Source: Flavobacteriaceae bacterium F08102 (lineage in GTDB: Bacteria > Bacteroidota > Bacteroidia > Flavobacteriales > Flavobacteriaceae). Taken from it: a stretch of DNA of 64,000 nt. Shown here one piece after another: positions 30,980-41,019 of the stretch. A program made the translations under genes and the position numbers. Position 1 is the first letter of the stretch, and each line of letters begins with the position of its first letter. The stretch covers positions 310,001 through 374,000 of the forward strand of contig JALKAY010000002.1 of assembly GCA_023015935.1 (NCBI GenBank), given 5' to 3'. Under the pieces are notes generated by a model, which saw only the letters and a list, made by a program, of their open reading frames with translations, was not told the DNA's origin and searched no databases.

Positions 30980-33525
30980 GTTGTGAATTGCTTTCAGAAT
31001 TACTATTTTAGTGATGATTCACAGGGGAGGACATTGTTAAGCAAATTCTTTTTCAGTTGTGAATTGCTTTCAGAATTACTATTTTAGTGATGATTCACAG
31101 GGCTTTTTTAAAAAAGCGGTAGCATTTGCCTGTTGTGAATTGCTTTCAGAATTACTATTTTAGTGATGATTCACAGGTAACGGAGATGGTTTTACAATAG
31201 ATGCCTTGTTGTGAATTGCTTTCAGAATTACTATTTTAGTGATGATTCACAGGCCGTTTGTGGACTATGAAAACAAAAGAGAGTTGTGAATTGCTTTCAG
31301 AATTACTATTTTAGTGATGATTCACAGGTTTACGAGATTCATTCTGATGCAATTATAGTTGTGAATTGCTTTCAGAATTACTATTTTAGTGATGATTCAC
31401 AGGGGCGGGAATGAATTTAAGCGATAGAGTTTGGTTGTGAATTGCTTTCAGAATTACTATTTTAGTGATGATTCACAGGACTTGACTCAATTATTAAAGG
31501 AAGATTGGGGTTGTGAATTGCTTTCAGAATTACTATTTTAGTGATGATTCACAGGTAGGAAAAGGAGAACACGAAACTTTGCATGTTGTGAATTGCTTTC
31601 AGAATTACTATTTTAGTGATGATTCACAGGCGACAAAAATGGAGTAGATATTTATGAGGGGTTGTGAATTGCTTTCAGAATTACTATTTTAGTGATGATT
31701 CACAGGAAGGAACATTTAAAAAGTAAAATTAAAGATGTTGTGAATTGCTTTCAGAATTACTATTTTAGTGATGATTCACAGGAAATAGCGAAAAGCAATC
31801 AAAATGGAGTTGGTTGTGAATTGCTTTCAGAATTACTATTTTAGTGATGATTCACAGGAAGCAGGATAAAAATGAACAACTGTTCATGGTTGTGAATTGC
31901 TTTCAGAATTACTATTTTAGTGATGATTCACAGGGGTGATGAAACAACCGCACACGCTGACTTAGTTGTGAATTGCTTTCAGAATTACTATTTTAGTGAT
32001 GATTCACAGGCTTTAATTAATAAATAGTAAAATACTTTTTGTTGTGAATTGCTTTCAGAATTACTATTTTAGTGATGATTCACAGGCATCTTTATTAGTG
32101 TCTACTTGACCGTCTGTTGTGAATTGCTTTCAGAATTACTATTTTAGTGATGATTCACAGGACTTAATGCAATTAAGTCTAATATCTCAACGTTGTGAAT
32201 TGCTTTCAGAATTACTATTTTAGTGATGATTCACAGGATCGAATCCCTGCTTTTCAATGGCAATTCTGTTGTGAATTGCTTTCAGAATTACTATTTTAGT
32301 GATGATTCACAGGACGGACTAATTTTTATTGTATACAGTATGGGTTGTGAATTGCTTTCAGAATTACTATTTTAGTGATGATTCACAGGACACCTTGGAG
32401 GAGTGGAAAATGATATGTGTTGTGAATTGCTTTCAGAATTACTATTTTAGTGATGATTCACAGGGTTAATAACTTTATACTCAACATACGTATAGTTGTG
32501 AATTGCTTTCAGAATTACTATTTTAGTGATGATTCACAGGATAAAGGTATTTTATTAGAAACTATATTAGTTGTGAATTGCTTTCAGAATTACTATTTTA
32601 GTGATGATTCACAGGTTAAGGGGCCGAATTAACGAGATCCGGCCCGTTGTGAATTGCTTTCAGAATTACTATTTTAGTGATGATTCACAGGTAATGTTGT
32701 ACGATTAACGTTGGCAGTAATGTTGTGAATTGCTTTCAGAATTACTATTTTAGTGATGATTCACAGGGAATCAACGGCGTTTATGTATTTAATTTTTGTT
32801 GTGAATTGCTTTCAGAATTACTATTTTAGTGATGATTCACAGGAGCGGTGGCTCTACGGTGTCGACTTCAAATGTTGTGAATTGCTTTCAGAATTACTAT
32901 TTTAGTGATGATTCACAGGAATTGCGCCAATTTCTTTTTTGGCTGCTGCGTTGTGAATTGCTTTCAGAATTACTATTTTAGTGATGATTCACAGGGTGAA
33001 GATTAAATTATGACCCTAACTATACGTTGTGAATTGCTTTCAGAATTACTATTTTAGTGATGATTCACAGGTGACTATCCAACTTTCTAATAGTCCGTGT
33101 GTTGTGAATTGCTTTCAGAATTACTATTTTAGTGATGATTCACAGGCCTGACTTTGCAGATATGCTTATGATGCGCGTTGTGAATTGCTTTCAGAATTAC
33201 TATTTTAGTGATGATTCACAGGCGGAGTCTCCTTTCCCTGTACTATCAATCTGTTGTGAATTGCTTTCAGAATTACTATTTTAGTGATGATTCACAGGAA
33301 CGTCCCCTTCTTGATCGTCAGCAATTGTGTTGTGAATTGCTTTCAGAATTACTATTTTAGTGATGATTCACAGGTGTGTTGCTTTGATGAGGATGAGAGC
33401 CTAGTTGTGAATTGCTTTCAGAATTACTATTTTAGTGATGATTCACAGGCGCGCTTATAAAATACACCGAGGACGCTAAGTTGTGAATTGCTTTCAGAAT
33501 TACTATTTTAGTGATGATTCACAGG
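30980..33525 (+). CRISPR. Type II-C CRISPR array, 34 repeats and 33 spacers
   Basis: There are 34 repeats of 46 bp, starting GTTGTGAATTGCTTTC and ending GATGATTCACAGG, and 33 spacers of 29 bp (eight) or 30 bp (twenty-five). All repeats appear identical by eye, including both terminal ones. Strand is set to plus because the first 17 nt after the initial G pair with the anti-repeat of the tracrRNA at 39198, as expected for the 5' end of a type II repeat in the crRNA. The array would therefore be transcribed towards cas2, against the cas operon. I could not match spacers to targets. I saw no obvious repeated spacer. Confidence 0.99.
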
Positions 33526-33633
33526 ATGCTTTCTGTAAAAGGTTGGCATCCTGTTTTTTAGGTGGGGAGCTAGGATGTACGATTTTCACAAAATTAGGCA
33601 GGCAAGGTTTTTGTTTAGGTAACATTATGAATC
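33526..33633. other. Short region between the array and cas2, possible leader
   Basis: This 108-bp stretch separates the last repeat from the cas2 stop. It is the only non-coding flank of the array longer than 14 bp, so it is the better candidate for the adaptation leader. No repeat remnant is visible. The choice is inference. Confidence 0.35.
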
Positions 33634-34014
<381 letters not shown>

Positions 34015-34914
34015 TTAGAATGTAAATTCTGGATATAGAATTTTTCGACGCGTCCCTTCAAAACATTCATACAAACTTGCTGTGGTGCGACTCATGGCAT
34101 TCATTAGTGGACTTCGTTTTCCGTCAATGACCACGTCCATTGCAGGAATCATCAATAACTCAGATTTAATGTTTGTATTCAGTTCTTCGAAATTGCAACC
34201 ACTTGCAACAATATCGTAAACCACCAGGTCCACAAACGGCCTGTATGGTTCCATTACATCGTCTGCCAAGCAAAAGGCATTGTATTTATTGTGATGAAAA
34301 ATTCCCAATGAAGGTATTAAGCCACTACTTACAAGGGCTCTTGCCGCTACCGCTCGTAAAATGGCATATCCATAATTCAATAAGTTGTTGGGAGGGATTC
34401 CTTTTTGATTTCGGCTAAAATCATCAAGGTCAAACAAATTTTGAAAATAAAAAGCGGCGGCCAATGCTTCCTGATTTCCCATAGCTCCACACTTGATTTC
34501 CTTGGCATATCTTTTCAGTCGGAGTGCATTTTTTTTGTGTAGTAAAAAGTGTGCCGCTTGATTCTCTATCTTTTGAATAACGGTTTGCTTCCATAAGTTT
34601 TTTTTAAGCGGGACACTTGCATCGAGCTGATATCGAAAACGCTCGGTCTGTTCGCTATGGCCTACCAACGGCTGTAAAAATCCAGAGGGTAAATGCTGCT
34701 TGTCACAGGTGATTACTGCAGTTTTATTTTGTACTAATTTCATTAACAGTCCTGTGGTTAGGGTAATTTGCGGATGTTCAAGCACTATATAGCCCACATC
34801 TTCTATGGGAATGGTTTTTTCTGCTTTATCGTCATCCGGATAGGTAACCGCTAACTGTTCATTTTGGGTACTTAAATAAGCTGGATTACCAAAAAATAAA
34901 GTACGCTTTATCAT
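34015..34914 (-). CDS. cas1: CRISPR integrase Cas1 (type II-C)
   Basis: A 299-residue Cas1 with the expected catalytic set: Glu149 (Gly-Asn-Gln-Glu-Ala), His207 or His208 (Gly-Ile-Phe-His-His-Asn) and Glu222 (Val-Met-Glu-Pro-Tyr-Arg-Pro). It starts with Lys-Arg-Thr-Leu-Phe-Phe-Gly-Asn-Pro, typical of type II Cas1. It catalyses insertion of new spacers together with Cas2. The start is 2 bp after the cas9 stop, so cas9, cas1 and cas2 form one operon. No cas4 or csn2 gene is present, which fits subtype II-C. Confidence 0.96.
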   Translation of the reverse strand: MIKRTLFFGNPAYLSTQNEQLAVTYPDDDKAEKTIPIEDVGYIVLEHPQITLTTGLLMKLVQNKTAVITCDKQHLPSGFLQPLVGHSEQTERFRYQLDASVPLKKNLWKQTVIQKIENQAAHFLLHKKNALRLKRYAKEIKCGAMGNQEALAAAFYFQNLFDLDDFSRNQKGIPPNNLLNYGYAILRAVAARALVSSGLIPSLGIFHHNKYNAFCLADDVMEPYRPFVDLVVYDIVASGCNFEELNTNIKSELLMIPAMDVVIDGKRSPLMNAMSRTTASLYECFEGTRRKILYPEFTF

Positions 34915-34916
34915 AA

Positions 34917-37900
34917 TTAATATTCTCCAACTTGAACTATTTTACCTATATGATTGATTCTAACTTTAATTATTCCTTGTAAAACTCTTGTAGATTGAAA
35001 ATGTTTATAGGTAAAATCAAGATTATTATTAATTGTAGTTTCTAGATGGTGTCTAAACATATAATTTTTTGTGGCTATTTTTTGTACCCTATATAAATAT
35101 GGGCTAATTTGATTATAATTCTTTTCATCTAACAAATCAATTCCTTTTGGGTCAAAACCTTGAGCGGGAATCACAAACATCTCATTTTGTTTCATTGTAA
35201 ATAAAAACCGCCAACCCAGTTCTTTGTTGTAGGTTTTATCTATTATAGGAATTCCTTGATTTACTCTGGTAACTGCTTCAAAAAAGGAAACTATTTGTTC
35301 CTGCCAATTCCCATTGGCATCCTCATAGATGGCAACGTGATGGTTGTTACCAGTACTCACAAAATCAACAGCTTCTTTAAGGTTGTCGTCATTTAAAATA
35401 ACCTTACCTAAATGATCTTTTTTATAGTGCAATGGTTCAGCATTGGTTACGCCCGTTATCGTTGCTCTTTTTATTGTAATTCCTTTGGCCTTATTTAAAT
35501 AGATCGGATTTTTTTCTAAATCTGAAAAAGCTTCTTTTGGGTTGCCTTTGAATTCTGTTAATCTATCTAATAAAATTTGGCGTACTTTTAAATCGACAAC
35601 CTTATGAATTGTTTTAACGTCCTTAAAGTTTTCTGGGGTTATATCTTTTCTAATTGTGAAAATTTCTTCAAAGCATAAAACCTCCTTTAAAGGCTCGTTT
35701 TTGAATAATATAGGTTCTTTTTTGAGTGTTTTTGTATCAAAAGCGAGTTCAGGTTTGTTGTCAAATTTTACTAAGTGTTCAATGACTAAATCTCGTTGTG
35801 TTGTATCGATGACTAGATGAGCCTGCTCAAGATTAAATTTCTTATTTAGTTTTGTAGGCTTTTCTAATGCTTTTTTACGTTTTCCATAAACCGTTTCTTT
35901 ATGTAATTGACCTCTTGGTGTAAGTTCTAATTTTTTGTAAACCTCATTTTTCTTTTTAGTCTTGTTAATATTCCGTGTGACTACCTTGTTCTTCGTTTTA
36001 AAACTTATTAATACAGATTCAATATGCTTTTTAGCTTCTGTTCTAAAGTTGGGCATTGGTTTTTTAAACTTTCGTTTTCCCTCTTCATTTTTATAAGTAA
36101 TTTTATTTTTTATACCATATAGCGCACTTTTTTTGTCTACTGATGCATTCAAATTGTTTAAATATTGAATATGGTTATGGGTAGTAAAGGCTACTGTTAA
36201 AGCATCTATGGCGTGATGACGATGGTCGTTACGTTTTGTCCAATCTTTAATAACTTCAACTTTTTTTAGTTTTTGGCTTCCTTTGTCTAGCCGTTCTTCA
36301 AATTCGGTTAAGCCCAAAGTTTTGTATTTTGGCATATTCAGTTCTTTCATCACATTGATTAAATCCCAATCTTCTCTGAGTTTATCCGTGATACGGCCAG
36401 ATGTTGAAACTATAGGGGTTCTAACCAAATCTTGTAAAATCTCTTTTGCTTTTTTTGCAATGTATTGGCTGTTGCGTAAATCGCGTTCTATAAATCCTTC
36501 GGGTAATTTGGCTTGGGTTAATAATAACTTATTTCTTTTAGCTTTTGAAATAGTACCTTTGCCATCATTGTATAAACTGGAGACACGTTCTACATAATTT
36601 TCTAGTTCAGAGTGATAGTCACTTGATATAAAATCGTACGCTGTACGATTAGCTTTTTTTAAATTGGTGTTTCGGTAAGCTAATGTTTTGTTAGAAAATG
36701 AATCGTCAAATAAGAGGGCTTTAGGAATGATATGTTCGATGTCGATTTCCTTTGAAAATAGTTTGTTTTTAGGAATGTATTTATTGGTAAATAATGTTTT
36801 GAATCCTCTTGGCTCTAATTCTAACCATAATTTATAGCGTACAACATCACTTTTCGTTGGATTGGGGATCCCAAATTCCTTCGTGATTGTTTTTCTAATA
36901 TCATCATTTATACGCGTAGCTGCTGCAATACCTTTTGTCATTTCAGCACGTTCTTTCGCGTTTTTTTTAAGTTCGCGTGCAAGTTCTATACGTATTTCAT
37001 CTGGTTTGCCATACGTATCAATAAGTTGGTTGATGACGTTAACCATTTGATTTAATATTTTTTCAACCACTGGATTACGCAAGCTATTTTTCTTAAGGAG
37101 CGCTAATTTGGGCTTTAACTCACGGTTTTCAAATTCTCTTTTTGTGAAACTGTTTGAATGGTTATAACCTGCTAAATCACAAGCTTTAGAATAGATGTTC
37201 CCCGCTTTTAAATAGGGGATTATTTTTTTGATAGCTTTCGTTGATAGATTGCCATAATCTTGTTGTAATGATATATTTGCGAGTAATGCGGCATAATTAG
37301 GCTTAAAACCGTACTTACTATGTAGTTTCTTTTTTAACGCTACATTTGTGTTGCCATACACTAATTTGTCTTCCTCAGAAATTTTAACGTCATCTTCTGC
37401 TGAATAAAGCAAATGCCATAGTTGATAACTGGTTTGATTGTTAAAGTCAGCTCCTTCTAATTCAGCATTGAAATCTAAAATTGAAGGGTCTATACCTATT
37501 TCTGGAAATATCGTTTTTAATTCCTCATTTATTTGTCTTGCGTTTTTTTTGTTCCAATCAAAACCATAGCCTTCGTATTCTGCAATTTTCTGATATACAT
37601 CGTATAGTGAAGCGTTGGTACGATTGCCTTCAATTTGCTCAAAATTACATTTCCACGCTGAAGTTTTGCCAATAGGGATAAAGTTAGACAGAATTTTTAA
37701 TATTTGTGTAGGTTTTAAATCCCCTCTTACATTAAGTTCACTAAAAATAGTTTCACGTATATCATCATCTATTTCTGCAATTTTAATGATCTCTCCTTTT
37801 GAAGTATTTATGAATTCTAAATTATTTAAGTTCTGCCAAATTTTAAATTCTTGAAATAAGGGAGATGATTTAGAAATAACACGATTACCTACAGTTCGTG

Positions 37901-39089
37901 TTTTGGTTTTTCCTGTTTCTTTTTCTATATAAGTTTGTTCCCAACTTTCAAATTGGCAAAAACTCAATAATCCTTTTTGAGACTTTAATTTACGCTGATA
38001 AAAAATGATAATATCACGGACTTCTTTTTTTAATTTGTTAGTCAATTGCGGATGATACTTAGCTTGTGTTTCCCAAATTTTTTCAAACTCATCTAAATAA
38101 TCTTGTCGGTAAAATACTTGGTTTTTGAGTGATGTATGTGGATTTTTCAGTAATTGTTTGTATAGGTATTCACCTACAGTTTCTTTATGAAAATAAAGTT
38201 CTTTACTGCGGTCTGAAATCGCTCCTAAATAACCGCTCGACTGGTTTAAATTATTGTTTATTTCTTGTAAAACAATAGCTAAATGTTCTAAATCTAGTTT
38301 TTTTACCAGAGCCGCTGCCCGTAATTCGTAACGTTTTAATTTTTGTTCAGCAGCTTTTCCTTCTAGTTTTATGCCTTGAATATTAAATGTCTTTTGACAA
38401 ATTGTCCACGTAGCTCCTTTGTTTTTGCCTTGTAGGGTTTTATACAATTCTTGTGTTAAAATGTTGGGGTAGTATTTTTTTTGAGTATTCCAAATTTTTT
38501 CGAATTCGGCTTGTAAATCTGAACGATAAAAGTCTGGAATGTACTTTTTACCATTTTTTAATAATTCTAGAACATATTGTCCTGGCGTTTGGTTGTATTC
38601 ATACAATGTTTTAGCAACAGACATACCATCTATTGTTTGTCCTTCCTCTTCATTATTGGCTTTTCGACTACTCCTATAACCACGTTTTTTATTTATAGCT
38701 AATAAAACACGAGCAAAATCTTCTAAATCTATTTTTTCTCGAGCAGATTTTGCGCGTAATCGCAAAGTTTGATGTGTAGTGTTTCTACCAACTTCGGTTA
38801 AAGGGGTGTCTTTTGTTATAAAACCATGGTTGATTAAAACCTCAATAAGTTTTTCACGGCGCAGTTTGTAGCGTTGTAAATTACGTCTCGCTCCACGTTT
38901 TAACGTTCGATTTGCATTTGTTGATAAAGGTCTTCCTTTTTCAAAATCCGTTTTTTCATCAGTAGTTAAAGGGTTTACTCTAACTCCCATTTTTATAATT
39001 GAAGATTTTTCGTCTTTACTTTCGGATTCGTTTACCAATGCCCATCCTATAGATGCAGTTCCTAAATCTAATCCAAGTATTTTTTTCAT
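34917..39089 (-). CDS. cas9: CRISPR effector nuclease Cas9 (type II-C)
   Basis: A 1390-residue RNA-guided DNA nuclease. RuvC-I is Gly-Leu-Asp-Leu-Gly-Thr (Asp8), followed by an Arg-rich bridge helix (about 60-80). RuvC-II has Ile-Arg-Ile-Glu-Leu-Ala (Glu702). The HNH domain has Asp-Ile-Glu-His-Ile-Ile-Pro (Asp783, His786), and RuvC-III has His-His-Ala-Ile-Asp-Ala (Asp962). All catalytic residues are present, so it should be active. The start at 39089 puts RuvC-I at the N-terminus as in all Cas9 proteins. The frame stays open further upstream only because it runs into the tracrRNA anti-repeat. Cas9 works with the tracrRNA on the opposite strand and crRNAs from the array. Confidence 0.97.
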   Translation of the reverse strand: MKKILGLDLGTASIGWALVNESESKDEKSSIIKMGVRVNPLTTDEKTDFEKGRPLSTNANRTLKRGARRNLQRYKLRREKLIEVLINHGFITKDTPLTEVGRNTTHQTLRLRAKSAREKIDLEDFARVLLAINKKRGYRSSRKANNEEEGQTIDGMSVAKTLYEYNQTPGQYVLELLKNGKKYIPDFYRSDLQAEFEKIWNTQKKYYPNILTQELYKTLQGKNKGATWTICQKTFNIQGIKLEGKAAEQKLKRYELRAAALVKKLDLEHLAIVLQEINNNLNQSSGYLGAISDRSKELYFHKETVGEYLYKQLLKNPHTSLKNQVFYRQDYLDEFEKIWETQAKYHPQLTNKLKKEVRDIIIFYQRKLKSQKGLLSFCQFESWEQTYIEKETGKTKTRTVGNRVISKSSPLFQEFKIWQNLNNLEFINTSKGEIIKIAEIDDDIRETIFSELNVRGDLKPTQILKILSNFIPIGKTSAWKCNFEQIEGNRTNASLYDVYQKIAEYEGYGFDWNKKNARQINEELKTIFPEIGIDPSILDFNAELEGADFNNQTSYQLWHLLYSAEDDVKISEEDKLVYGNTNVALKKKLHSKYGFKPNYAALLANISLQQDYGNLSTKAIKKIIPYLKAGNIYSKACDLAGYNHSNSFTKREFENRELKPKLALLKKNSLRNPVVEKILNQMVNVINQLIDTYGKPDEIRIELARELKKNAKERAEMTKGIAAATRINDDIRKTITKEFGIPNPTKSDVVRYKLWLELEPRGFKTLFTNKYIPKNKLFSKEIDIEHIIPKALLFDDSFSNKTLAYRNTNLKKANRTAYDFISSDYHSELENYVERVSSLYNDGKGTISKAKRNKLLLTQAKLPEGFIERDLRNSQYIAKKAKEILQDLVRTPIVSTSGRITDKLREDWDLINVMKELNMPKYKTLGLTEFEERLDKGSQKLKKVEVIKDWTKRNDHRHHAIDALTVAFTTHNHIQYLNNLNASVDKKSALYGIKNKITYKNEEGKRKFKKPMPNFRTEAKKHIESVLISFKTKNKVVTRNINKTKKKNEVYKKLELTPRGQLHKETVYGKRKKALEKPTKLNKKFNLEQAHLVIDTTQRDLVIEHLVKFDNKPELAFDTKTLKKEPILFKNEPLKEVLCFEEIFTIRKDITPENFKDVKTIHKVVDLKVRQILLDRLTEFKGNPKEAFSDLEKNPIYLNKAKGITIKRATITGVTNAEPLHYKKDHLGKVILNDDNLKEAVDFVSTGNNHHVAIYEDANGNWQEQIVSFFEAVTRVNQGIPIIDKTYNKELGWRFLFTMKQNEMFVIPAQGFDPKGIDLLDEKNYNQISPYLYRVQKIATKNYMFRHHLETTINNNLDFTYKHFQSTRVLQGIIKVRINHIGKIVQVGEY

Positions 39090-39143
39090 ATTTGAGCTAG
39101 TATTAAAAAAAGAACCTACAAGTACAGAAAAATCTTTCAAATA

Positions 39144-39167
39144 AAAAAGGGGAATTTTCCCCTTTTT
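39144..39167. terminator. Symmetrical hairpin between cas9 and tracrRNA
   Basis: An 11-bp perfect stem (AAAAAGGGGAA with TTCCCCTTTTT) and a 2-nt loop, which can work as a terminator on either strand. It may insulate the divergent cas9 and tracrRNA units. If the cas9 promoter lies to its right, it would instead sit in the cas9 leader. On the minus strand TTTG-N19-TAGGTTCT between it and the cas9 start is a possible cas9 promoter. Confidence 0.5.
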
Positions 39168-39196
39168 ATATTGCTTATTTATTATTAATTTAGTCG

Positions 39197-39276
39197 CCTG
39201 AAAGCAATTCACAATAAGGATTATTCCGTTGTGAAAACATGCAAAGCGGCAAGTTAAACCTTAGTCGCTTTTTTAT
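39197..39276 (+). ncRNA. tracrRNA of the type II-C system
   Basis: The plus strand carries a 17-nt anti-repeat (CTGAAAGCAATTCACAA, 39198-39214), which is perfectly complementary to the 5' part of the CRISPR repeat. It is followed by TAAGGATTATTCCGTT, which matches the TAAGGCTAGTCCGTT nexus of Streptococcus pyogenes tracrRNA in form, and by a terminator hairpin (AAGCGGC pairing with GTCGCTT) and TTTTTT. A -7 like TAATTTAG at 39186-39193 suggests a start near 39197. The RNA would be about 80 nt. It is divergent from cas9. Confidence 0.88.
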
Positions 39277-39316
39277 TTTTTAGTAGTATACCCTCAAAAA
39301 GGGATGATACTCATTA

Positions 39317-39351
39317 AAAGCCAAAACCTCGAAAAGTAGTTTTATGGCTTT
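39317..39351 (+). terminator. Second hairpin after the tracrRNA
   Basis: Arms AAAGCCA and TGGCTTT, with an inner AAAC/GTTT stem, are followed on the plus strand by ATTATTTTTT. It may be a back-up terminator for the tracrRNA, or the end of a separate small RNA. Confidence 0.4.
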
Positions 39352-39398
39352 ATTATTTTTTAGCTTATGCTCAACGAACGCTGGGAACGTCGTAAATG

Positions 39399-39427
39399 AA
39401 AAAAAAATTGAAAAATCGAAGATTTTT
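39399..39427 (-). terminator. Terminator after the tRNA-Pro repeats
   Basis: AAAAATC-TTC-GATTTTT on the minus strand (39411-39427) is followed by an almost unbroken T run. It lies just beyond the last copy of the tRNA 3' end and would stop any transcript that passes the earlier terminators. Confidence 0.65.
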
Positions 39428-39440
39428 AGGCTTTTAATGG

Positions 39441-39765
39441 TCGGGATGACAGGATTTACAGAATCCTATAAAACCCTCATGGCAAATTAAAAATACAGGC
39501 TGACGCCTTTACATTTTTTGTTTACATGCCCATACAAAAACAAGGCTTTTGACGTACATATAAACAAAAAATGATTTGCTTTTGCAAATCATTTTTAATT
39601 TAGTCGGGATGACAGGATTTACAGAATCCTATAAAACCCTCATGGCAAATTAAAATGCAGGCTGACGCCTTTATATTTTTTGTTTACATGCCCTTACAAA
39701 AACAAGGCTTTTGACGTGCTTATAAACAAAAAATGATTTGCTCTTGCAAATCATTTTTAATTTAG
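39441..39765 (-). repeat. Two tandem 162/163-bp repeats carrying tRNA-Pro 3' ends
   Basis: Unit 1 is 39441-39603 and unit 2 is 39604-39765. They differ at about seven positions by eye. Each starts (plus-strand view) with TCGGGATGACAGGATTT, which is the last 17 nt of the tRNA-Pro that follows at 39766-39782. Each also carries a T-arm-like hairpin (AGGATT/AATCCT) and a 13-bp terminator stem (AAAAATGATTTGC/GCAAATCATTTTT). In the direction of tRNA transcription the order is tRNA, spacer, tRNA 3' end, spacer, tRNA 3' end. Confidence 0.92.
39724..39758 (-). terminator. Terminator of tRNA-Pro (copy in repeat unit 2)
   Basis: On the minus strand a 13-bp stem AAAAATGATTTGC / GCAAATCATTTTT with a 4-nt loop is followed by more T. 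It starts 8 bp after the tRNA. The same structure with a TTTT loop (plus view) recurs at 39562-39596 in repeat unit 1. Confidence 0.75.
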
Positions 39766-39839
39766 TCGGGATGACAGGATTTGAACCTGCGACCCCACGG
39801 CCCCCAGCCGTGTGCGCTACCGGGCTGCGCTACATCCCG
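39766..39839 (-). tRNA. tRNA-Pro (anticodon GGG)
   Basis: On the minus strand the acceptor stem CGGGATG pairs with CATCCCG and the discriminator base is A. The D arm contains AGCGCAGCCCGGTAGCGC, the anticodon arm is CACGG-CTGGGGG-CCGTG with anticodon GGG, and the T arm has loop TTCAAAT. The 3' CCA is not encoded. The fold is complete, so it should be functional. Confidence 0.97.
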
Positions 39840-40413
39840 AAACTAAATAATTTATAACTTAAAGAACATCTATATTACTAAGTTTTCCCTTTGATTTCTA
39901 AGCTGAAATCTGCAGGTGCCTACAGGGTATAGTCGAAAATAACTTTCTTAACCTAGTAAGGTCGGCAAAACTATAAAATTTAACTTAAATATTCATAACG
40001 ATTCGATGGATAAATATAAAATTCTATGATAGGTTACCTTAATAGGGGTACGTTATTTAATAAATTGGAAATAAAAATCTTGGCTTAACATAGCTGCTTG
40101 CTCTCTTTTTAATTGGAGTTAGCTAGATCAATTGTAAGCGTGATGGTTGGGTTTTGTTTGGCTGATTTTGACTTCAACGTTGCTTTAATTGCAATGGGAT
40201 GCTTATAAAATATCGCCGGAAGAAAACGGATAGCCATTTCTAGGTATGGAGTATTTCCAATGAAGAAGTCATTGAACGAATAGAATAGGTTGTAACTTTA
40301 GTATGAATAGGGTAGAAGTAAAGGAATGACAAATAGGTGTTTTAGTCTTCTGTTAATTAGTTTACTTTGGTTATTTTGGTGTTTTTAAAAATAACCATAA
40401 ACGAAGTGAGAAA
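39840..40413. other. Non-coding stretch between tRNA-Pro and a methyltransferase gene
   Basis: I see no convincing gene, repeat or RNA structure in these 574 bp. The promoter of tRNA-Pro should lie at its left end and that of the methyltransferase at its right end (around 40370-40390, TTTGGTTATTTTGG). Confidence 0.4.
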
Positions 40414-41019
40414 ATGACCCCTCTAACGAATCTCAAACAACAAGTAGGTGCAAAAATTGATATCTATATTTTTGATCAAATTTTAAAAAATCGCTATGCG
40501 CTAAAGGATCTAATTTTAGATGCAGGGTGTGGCCATGGTCGGAATATTCATTGGTTTTTAGCGCAGGGGATGACCGTTTACGGAATTGATAAACTCAAGG
40601 ATCGAATCCATGTGGTAAAAGAAAAATATCCAACAAGCGCCCAAAATTTTCAGGTGGCGAATTTAGAGCAAATTCCCTTTGATGATGCCTATTTTGACCA
40701 TGTTATTTGTTCTGCTGTGCTACATTTTGCAAAAAGTGAAGATCATTTTAAACAACAATTTTCAGAATTAGTGCGTGTACTCAAGCCTAAGGGACATTTG
40801 TTTATCCGAATGACTTCGGATATTGGTATTGCTGATAAAGTGGTGCCAAAAGGCAATGGTGTATATTTTTTACCTGATAAAACGCATCGTTTTCTGTTGA
40901 CTAAATCGTTGCTTTCTGAAGTTATGAAAATGCATAAGTTGACTTTTGTTGAACCTTTGAAAACAACGAATGTCAACGACTTGCGTTGTATGACTACCGT
41001 AGTGTTGATAAAACGGTGA
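40414..41019 (+). CDS. Class I SAM-dependent methyltransferase
   Basis: A 201-residue protein with a Rossmann-type methyltransferase fold. Motif I is Leu-Asp-Ala-Gly-Cys-Gly-His-Gly-Arg (about 38-46), an acidic residue ends strand 2 (Val-Tyr-Gly-Ile-Asp-Lys), motif II is Gln-Ile-Pro-Phe-Asp-Asp-Ala-Tyr-Phe-Asp near 90, and Leu-Val-Arg-Val-Leu-Lys-Pro-Lys-Gly follows near 125. This matches Methyltransf_11-type small-molecule or lipid methyltransferases. The substrate cannot be inferred. It stands alone on the plus strand between tRNA-Pro and the convergent locus D operon. Confidence 0.85.
   Translation: MTPLTNLKQQVGAKIDIYIFDQILKNRYALKDLILDAGCGHGRNIHWFLAQGMTVYGIDKLKDRIHVVKEKYPTSAQNFQVANLEQIPFDDAYFDHVICSAVLHFAKSEDHFKQQFSELVRVLKPKGHLFIRMTSDIGIADKVVPKGNGVYFLPDKTHRFLLTKSLLSEVMKMHKLTFVEPLKTTNVNDLRCMTTVVLIKR

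Follow-up and report, generated by a model that had tools for sequence, protein, structure and literature searches.

In the window, a stretch of 64,000 nucleotides from contig JALKAY010000002.1 of Flavobacteriaceae bacterium F08102, an intact gene for tRNA-Pro(GGG) is followed, in the direction of transcription, by a tandem array of units that border directly on the tRNA and on each other. The host gene and the parts of the array are the following:

39765..39839, minus strand: tRNA-Pro(GGG), the host gene, intact (ARAGORN; Rfam RF00005, 63 bits)
39603..39764, minus strand: unit 1, 162 bp, adjoining the tRNA; its last 18 nt, 39603-39620, repeat the tRNA 3′ end
39440..39602, minus strand: unit 2, 163 bp; its last 18 nt, 39440-39457, repeat the tRNA 3′ end, after which CA (39438-39439) completes CCA
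39614..39630, minus strand: altered T-arm of unit 1, AGGATT-CTGTA-AATCCT (sequence and fold)
39451..39467, minus strand: altered T-arm of unit 2, identical in sequence to that of unit 1 (sequence and fold)
39723..39764, minus strand: terminator-like hairpin h1 of unit 1 (inverted repeat I6)
39561..39602, minus strand: terminator-like hairpin h1 of unit 2 (inverted repeat I5)
39675..39734, minus strand: long second hairpin h2 of unit 1, the part most like the tRNA-Ser(TGA) units found elsewhere (inverted repeat I4, alignments)
39512..39573, minus strand: long second hairpin h2 of unit 2 (inverted repeat I7, alignments)
39280..39439, minus strand: third, decayed unit of the tRNA-Pro(TGG) trailer type (matches among tRNA downstream regions; inverted repeat I8)

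The 18-mer AAATCCTGTCATCCCGAC, which runs from the T-loop to the 3′ end of the tRNA plus one base, starts on the minus strand at 39782 within the tRNA gene and again at 39620 and 39457, and the end copies in units 1 and 2 are exact over these 18 nt. When the array is compared with itself in register, identity between the repeats reaches 94% over 136 nt and is complete (100%) over a stretch of 53 nt. The initial annotation had described a tRNA 3′ end that recurs twice downstream at a spacing of 162 and 163 bp, each time with its own terminator hairpin, and both statements hold, the tRNA being called by ARAGORN and the hairpins lying at 39723-39764 and 39561-39602; the third, decayed unit is an addition to that account. 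Each copy has the 5′ strand AGGATTCTGT where the tRNA has GCAGGTTC, so that an altered T-arm forms in which, from sequence and fold, the T-loop of the tRNA is replaced by a longer hairpin. The end of tRNA-Pro(GGG) reaches 16/16 in its downstream DNA at two places, while control pairs with a different tRNA reached at least 13/16 in 0 to 0.19% of cases across the five genomes surveyed (at most 0.19% in any of them), and the copies thus exceed chance. A DNA search of the same genome returned the array locus alone, with weak matches inside that locus, and neither unit 1 nor unit 2 holds an ORF of 60 aa, hence no gene for a GIY-YIG nuclease of the kind described below.

The array has a type II CRISPR-Cas locus beside it (30980-39277), with cas2, cas1 and cas9 on the minus strand and CRISPR repeats at 30980-33526 with a period of 75-76 bp. 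A stretch near 39197-39214 is complementary to the start of the CRISPR repeat and is therefore probably a tracrRNA, which would point towards the tRNA array. In another genome (G008), the 3′ end of tRNA-Pro(GGG) is the exact starting point of a contig (L006), which would fit a break in the assembly caused by a repeat array at this site.

The tyrT operon of E. coli carries 178-bp rtT repeats. The comparison with this architecture, made in the initial annotation, is well founded and extends to the manner in which the T-arm is altered: in both systems, units stand head to tail downstream of a tRNA on the same strand, each ends in the tRNA 3′ end, and the T-stem is kept with the T-loop replaced by a longer hairpin of the form GGAT-x-A...TAATCC, which reads GGATGA...TAATCC in the rtT repeats behind tyrV of E. 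coli K-12 and GGATCA...TAATCC in most of the tRNA-Pro units read. The two differ in that a single E. coli locus was compared with several tRNAs in Flavobacteriaceae, that the annotation of the 1.1-kb E. coli stretch contains no GIY-YIG gene, and that the RtT family of Rfam had no match at 38900-40500 of the window, even at E ≤ 1.

The spread of such arrays was followed by a survey in which each tRNA's own 16-nt end was sought in its downstream DNA in five genomes (at most 30 loci each, threshold 13/16). End matches were found behind 2 of 24 tRNAs in G000, 2 of 27 in G013 and 4 of 25 in G069, and behind none of 29 in G018 and none of 34 in G053, both from other families of the class. Regularly spaced arrays stand in G069 behind the tRNAs for Phe (95 bp), Trp (72 bp), Gln (150 bp), Ser (177 bp) and Pro (182 bp). 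The initial annotation had allowed that relatives might carry only a single, unconserved and silent copy, as a chance local duplication would leave; transcription aside, relatives carry arrays at several tRNAs. When named genomes were scanned for TAATCC followed by the 3′ end of tRNA-Pro, at least 120 loci came up, 80 of which, mostly from Flavobacteriaceae, were analysed; among the matches listed, 32 of the 80 lie 104-448 nt behind a detected tRNA-Pro(TGG), and of the other loci some are units without a detected tRNA, many resemble the ends of integrated elements and a few are unrelated.

Across the phylum, the exact-copy pattern was found in 1 of 296 genomes and was thus too strict, so that a covariance model of the conserved part (the tRNA-Pro(TGG) trailer) was run on 198 genomes of the phylum instead, the genomes used being mostly drafts. 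It matched in 26 of the 198 at E ≤ 0.01 and in 6 at E ≤ 1.1e-6; because G000, G069 and G145 (L089) had supplied sequences for the model, only G045, G061 and G133 are independent among these six. Thirty loci were fetched: tRNA-Pro(TGG) precedes 9 of the 10 that reach E ≤ 1.1e-6, and none of the 20 weaker ones has a tRNA. Within the genus, the pattern GGATCACGA...GTAATCC gave 55 matches in 8 of 17 genomes. Among 30 of these loci that were fetched, many of them overlapping, 20 follow a tRNA on its own strand, 2 (at a contig end) precede one, and 8 have none in view, 7 of which are cut by contig ends and one of which (L320) has full flanks. An explanation of this pattern as a dispersed REP-like hairpin finds no support in this genus, and the pattern read backwards gave no match; a weaker copy in the genome of the window lies away from tRNAs. 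In viral contigs at least 120 stretches matched the same pattern, which is too loose there, most of them being expected by chance by our own estimate; the one such locus that was read, L345, carries Ser-type units.

The array in the window is therefore not a lone rtT-like curiosity, and the main point, which the initial annotation could not have seen, is its link to units with GIY-YIG genes at tRNA genes. In G045, tRNA-Pro(TGG) and a copy of its end enclose a small GIY-YIG gene. Five genomes searched with PF01541 gave 42 matches whose open frame does not exceed 140 aa; 28 of these lie at a tRNA, a tmRNA or a tRNA half, and 13 had none within flanks of about 0.5-1.5 kb, one being counted neither way. 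The genes, often in tandem, stand at tRNAs of several kinds. G001 has four 377-bp GIY-YIG units at tRNA-Phe and one at tRNA-Pro(GGG) (L516), and a further genome, G335 (L549), has three in tandem at tRNA-Pro(GGG). G069 has two genes at tRNA-Asp, three at tRNA-Arg(ACG), one and a part of another at tRNA-Met and one at tRNA-Ser(TGA), besides eight behind an apparent 3′ half of tRNA-Met. G045 has one each at Leu, Arg, Val, tmRNA and Pro, G013 has one at Asn, and the genome of the window has a single small GIY-YIG gene, at tRNA-Asp.

In a typical coding unit, the gene for a small single-domain GIY-YIG protein (about 73-113 aa) is combined with part of the host tRNA, copied with one loop or arm exchanged for another hairpin, and units are placed either downstream, with copies of the 3′ end, or upstream, with copies of the 5′ end. 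The hairpin that replaces a loop is TCCCGAAGCATCGGGA in the T-loop of a Phe copy, TCCCGATAGCTATCGGGA in the D-loop of an Asn copy and CCTGCCTGCCGCAGGCAGG in the D-loop of an Arg copy, and in the tRNA-Pro(GGG) copy of G335 TCACGCCAAAGGCGTGA stands for the anticodon arm. In L516 of G001 (1340-1740), a pseudo-copy of the tRNA with several arms replaced lies upstream of tRNA-Pro(GGG), and the nuclease gene extends into the 5′ end of the real tRNA, where its stop codon is found. Small GIY-YIG genes also stand downstream of tmRNA, which has a tRNA-like end, in G045 (L536, 300-830) and G316 (L552), and their proteins are mutually nearest.

The association of these proteins with tRNA genes was tested on other genomes with a profile (A3) built from 11 tRNA-associated GIY-YIG proteins and run on 60 genomes of 60 genera, of which G000 alone is also represented in the profile. 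Matches at E ≤ 1e-8 were obtained in 43 of the 60 genomes, 20 of them at E ≤ 5.8e-21, a cut that was seen in the data rather than preset and that includes G000. The best locus of each of 30 genomes was fetched, and all 20 with E ≤ 5.8e-21 lie at a full tRNA or tmRNA (17) or at 3′ pieces of a tRNA (3), with the same strand used in all 17 cases of the full gene. None of the 10 weaker loci has a tRNA, a tmRNA or such pieces (one of them, L562, has 88 bases of contig on one side), nor does any of 20 control loci, taken from chance matches of the covariance search, lie at a tRNA. All 11 members of the profile match the GIY-YIG family of Pfam, and four also weakly match a group I intron endonuclease; Y6, Y17, G19, R27, H31 and E65 are invariant among the 11, of which Tyr6, Tyr17, Arg27 and Glu65 are what we take to be the catalytic positions. 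By sequence, the nearest solved structures are those of UPF0213 GIY-YIG proteins and SLX1 (1zg2, 1ywl, 7cq2), although the small GIY-YIG proteins of these genomes that lie away from tRNAs mostly group separately from the tRNA-associated ones.

In a tree of 52 proteins, 51 of them different, the label for tRNA association changes 4 times, against 15.3 for shuffled labels, and none of 500 shuffles was as low. The 18 small GIY-YIG proteins away from tRNAs fall mostly into a group of their own, 15 of them together with three tRNA or tmRNA cases. Within the association, the proteins are grouped by tRNA: for 24 of 33 proteins the nearest relative outside the genus sits at the same isoacceptor, where 10,000 shuffles gave a mean of 1.9 and a maximum of 12, and the proteins at tRNA-Pro(GGG) in G001 and G335 are mutual nearest neighbours.

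Coding and non-coding units occur with common borders and even in one array. Behind tRNA-Ser(TGA) of G069, units of 177, 177, 373, 178 and 177 bp follow each other, and the 373-bp unit alone encodes a nuclease, an 87-aa GIY-YIG protein; all five units share a left terminator, with one or two changes, and a right copy of the Ser end. G045 likewise has a GIY-YIG unit and a non-coding unit in one array behind tRNA-Pro(TGG), and the units at tRNA-Phe, whose junction inside the T-loop is identical in the two genomes, contain the gene in G001 (377 bp) and lack it in G069 (95 bp). The non-coding Ser units of G069 (L243) count among the five regions that best match the units in the window, which leads back to the history of the array itself.

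Units 1 and 2 and the third unit were compared with 327 tRNA downstream regions. The five best regions among the 327 were the same for units 1 and 2 (L309, L034, L308, L243 and L313), the last four of these being typed as Ser(TGA) and L309 being left untyped ('???') by ARAGORN. The margins are small, the fifth match scoring 42 against 40 for the next, a Pro region, in unit 1 and 38 against 37 in unit 2, and the likeness to the Ser type rests mainly on the long hairpin. For the third unit, the four best of the 327 regions are all tRNA-Pro(TGG) regions, the first being the paralogue in the same genome, the second from Gelidibacter gilvus (L164) and the last two from G002. The array is thus layered, and since units 1 and 2 are Ser-like while the older, decayed unit is Pro-like, the units were probably inserted at the tRNA, with the old flank pushed away. 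The simplest history that the alignments suggest is one in which tRNA-Pro(GGG) first had a Pro-type trailer and later took up Ser-type units precisely at its 3′ end, which was duplicated in the process. The tRNA-Ser(TGA) of the same genome lacks the same long hairpin and its single small GIY-YIG gene is at tRNA-Asp, which places the source of units 1 and 2 outside the assembly.

Taken together, units 1 and 2 are best explained, with somewhat more confidence than doubt, as non-coding members of a class of mobile, tandemly amplifying units at the tRNA ends of Flavobacteriaceae that are driven by GIY-YIG nucleases. The nuclease of a coding unit would cut its own tRNA gene, and repair from a unit-bearing template would then place the unit next to that gene, which would stay intact and gain an additional copy of its end. 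The hairpin in the end copy would destroy the cut site and so protect the copy, and further breaks or unequal exchange may enlarge the array. Cutting in the region of the tRNA by these nucleases is predicted from the grouping of the proteins by tRNA (24 of 33). Non-coding units would be passengers or deletion derivatives, and those in the window would be satellites.

Several observations count against homing. The intact tRNA keeps the presumed cut site, so that one would expect an element of this kind to be suicidal, and the array in the window has no nuclease gene, its link to coding units running via relatives. The altered loop or arm is present in most units read, with the exception of the tRNA-Pro copy of G045, in which the T-loop is kept. 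The tRNA-associated proteins do not form one clade, three of them falling among the others and three others among them. Unit-like ends occur with no tRNA in view, on contig C33 of the same genome near 379929 and in L098 and L138. Finally, a wobble bias in the stems suggests selection on RNA, which would be superfluous for a selfish element.

A more general proposal is put forward tentatively, as a serious possibility on which our confidence falls a little short of balance: that a selfish system resides at the tRNA and tmRNA genes of bacteria, in which GIY-YIG units specific to a single tRNA insert beside it, keep the tRNA working and leave end copies that a swapped-in hairpin makes uncuttable, while non-coding satellites spread along with them and can switch their tRNA host, the rtT repeats of E. 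coli being fossils of a similar kind. Being essential and conserved, tRNA genes are good landing sites for selfish DNA. If the proposal is true, a mechanism would be offered for the long-known rtT repeats, and the units may be one reason why tRNA trailers are patchy, why tandem repeats vary and why assemblies break at tRNA ends; the tRNA-matched nuclease units would then be a chromosomal counterpart of SegB of phages.

SegB, as presented in the available portions of two papers (PMC13096335, PMC2988022), is a free-standing GIY-YIG homing endonuclease of phages T4 and T6 that is encoded among tRNA genes, is required for the tandem amplification of a segment comprising tRNA-Tyr and segB, and is widespread in phages beside tRNA genes of many isotypes. 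The likeness lies in a nuclease gene that adjoins tRNAs and in the tandem amplification of a segment of tRNA plus nuclease; those portions also describe a microhomology of the tRNA 5′ end with the 3′ end of the nuclease gene, to be compared with the upstream units of Flavobacteriaceae in which the gene runs into the tRNA. The array in the window shares one of the SegB-like features, i.e., a tandem array at a tRNA gene. SegB differs in that it resides in a phage genome and amplifies a segment with a full-length tRNA, and hairpin-altered copies are absent from the features described in the same portions, whereas the Flavobacteriaceae units are chromosomal, encode single-domain proteins grouped by tRNA and are in many cases non-coding. 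One tRNA-associated GIY-YIG protein had no match among 50,697 phage records. In the literature on rtT and tyrT, on tRNA repeats and on GIY-YIG proteins with tRNA, which was covered in available portions of open-licence papers (PMC8040213 included) so that an absence weighs little, the SegB papers alone looked related.

Of the other explanations, the one that fares best, though we judge it unlikely, is that the units are functional RNAs like rtT, contained in the tRNA precursor and processed to small structured RNAs (a stable trailer, a sponge or a decoy), which were selected and multiplied by unequal exchange. It agrees with the position of the units downstream of the tRNA on its strand and with the case of E. 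coli, where rtT repeats of the same design come with an annotated RNA, rttR. In 33 unit bodies, from which the 3′ ends and the altered T-arm had been left out, the sense fold is the more stable in 28, and the stems have 1105 Watson-Crick pairs, where none of 20 shuffles exceeded 802. G.T pairs exceed C.A pairs in 24 of the 33 units and are fewer in 3, a bias that is modest after base composition (0.72, against a shuffle mean of 0.59 and a maximum of 0.66 in 20 shuffles). The altered T-arm covaries, with 50 of 66 pairs over 22 distinct loops, taken from the units in which the T-arm pattern is present (26 of 33), against a null maximum of 45. Given the excess of stems and the G.T bias on the tRNA strand, the transcribed strand may matter, and an RNA role is possible and would be compatible with a selfish origin. 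In a MAFFT alignment of 20 units, the long hairpins remained unaligned and the consensus fold consisted of h1 and the altered T-arm only, so that alignment-based covariation is claimed for nothing beyond these two.

Against such an RNA stands its patchy occurrence, the trailer model reaching E ≤ 1.1e-6 in the six of 198 genomes named above, three of which had supplied model sequences, as well as the apparent swapping of unit types between tRNAs. By our own reading, the G069 units at tRNA-Phe, Trp, Thr and Gln have no cloverleaf; the units in the window match no Rfam family, and on 18 unit-bearing loci Rfam matched the tRNA alone. Whole units, 3′ ends included, fold better on the opposite strand in 23 of 33 cases; an antisense RNA, which this number had favoured, was rejected, the trimmed bodies and the mismatch count both favouring sense. 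An RNA role also leaves the nuclease genes in the same arrays unaccounted for.

Plain tandem duplication, in which a chance copy of the tRNA 3′ end gave rise to slippage or unequal exchange with no dedicated machinery, is quite improbable in our judgement. Units 1 and 2 are nearly identical, and one local duplication would suffice for them; against it, arrays with borders of the same kind recur at several tRNAs and in several species, far above the control rate, and T-arm, D-arm or anticodon arm have repeatedly been swapped for a hairpin.

Integrative elements duplicate the segment of a tRNA from the T-loop to the 3′ end, which is the same segment that is duplicated here, and the copies might be attR-like scars of such elements or spare targets that divert integrases from the tRNA. 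In relatives, tRNA-Pro is apparently an integration site, with putative tyrosine integrase genes beside it in L011 and L014, and att-like copies have the same T-loop boundary, which was fixed by the search pattern itself. An origin of the repeats as att-site duplications, considered in the initial annotation, is nonetheless very improbable and finds no support: such elements carry an integrase, and no phage-type integrase was found among 13 window proteins tested (one of them being Cas1; the window has 48 ORFs of at least 100 aa); the altered T-arm of the unit copies, with its 5′ T-stem partner strand AGGATT, is absent from the presumed, displaced element ends that were read; and in L111, L132 and L135 the presumed element end, at which alone the elements were followed, precedes the unit, which looks like use of the genuine tRNA end by the element.

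Related structures stand elsewhere in the genome of the window. Contig C33 carries, near 379929 (L488), a near-identical counterpart of the end of the unit at its own tRNA-Pro(TGG), about 12 kb from that tRNA; being this far from the nearest known unit, it indicates that some copies are found away from tRNAs. The tRNAs for Arg(TCG) and Arg(ACG) (L053, L058) are followed by repeats in tandem whose T-arms are altered, the end copy at ACG being decayed, and behind tRNA-Leu(TAG) (L057) there are tRNA-Leu-like pieces with extra hairpins and an end copy of 14/16. Related hairpins are present at tRNA-Val, Ser(TGA) and Pro(TGG), and the motif GGATCATTC stands behind tRNA-Lys, Asn, Asp and Gln (L045, L046, L049, L050), at Asp directly after the GIY-YIG gene.
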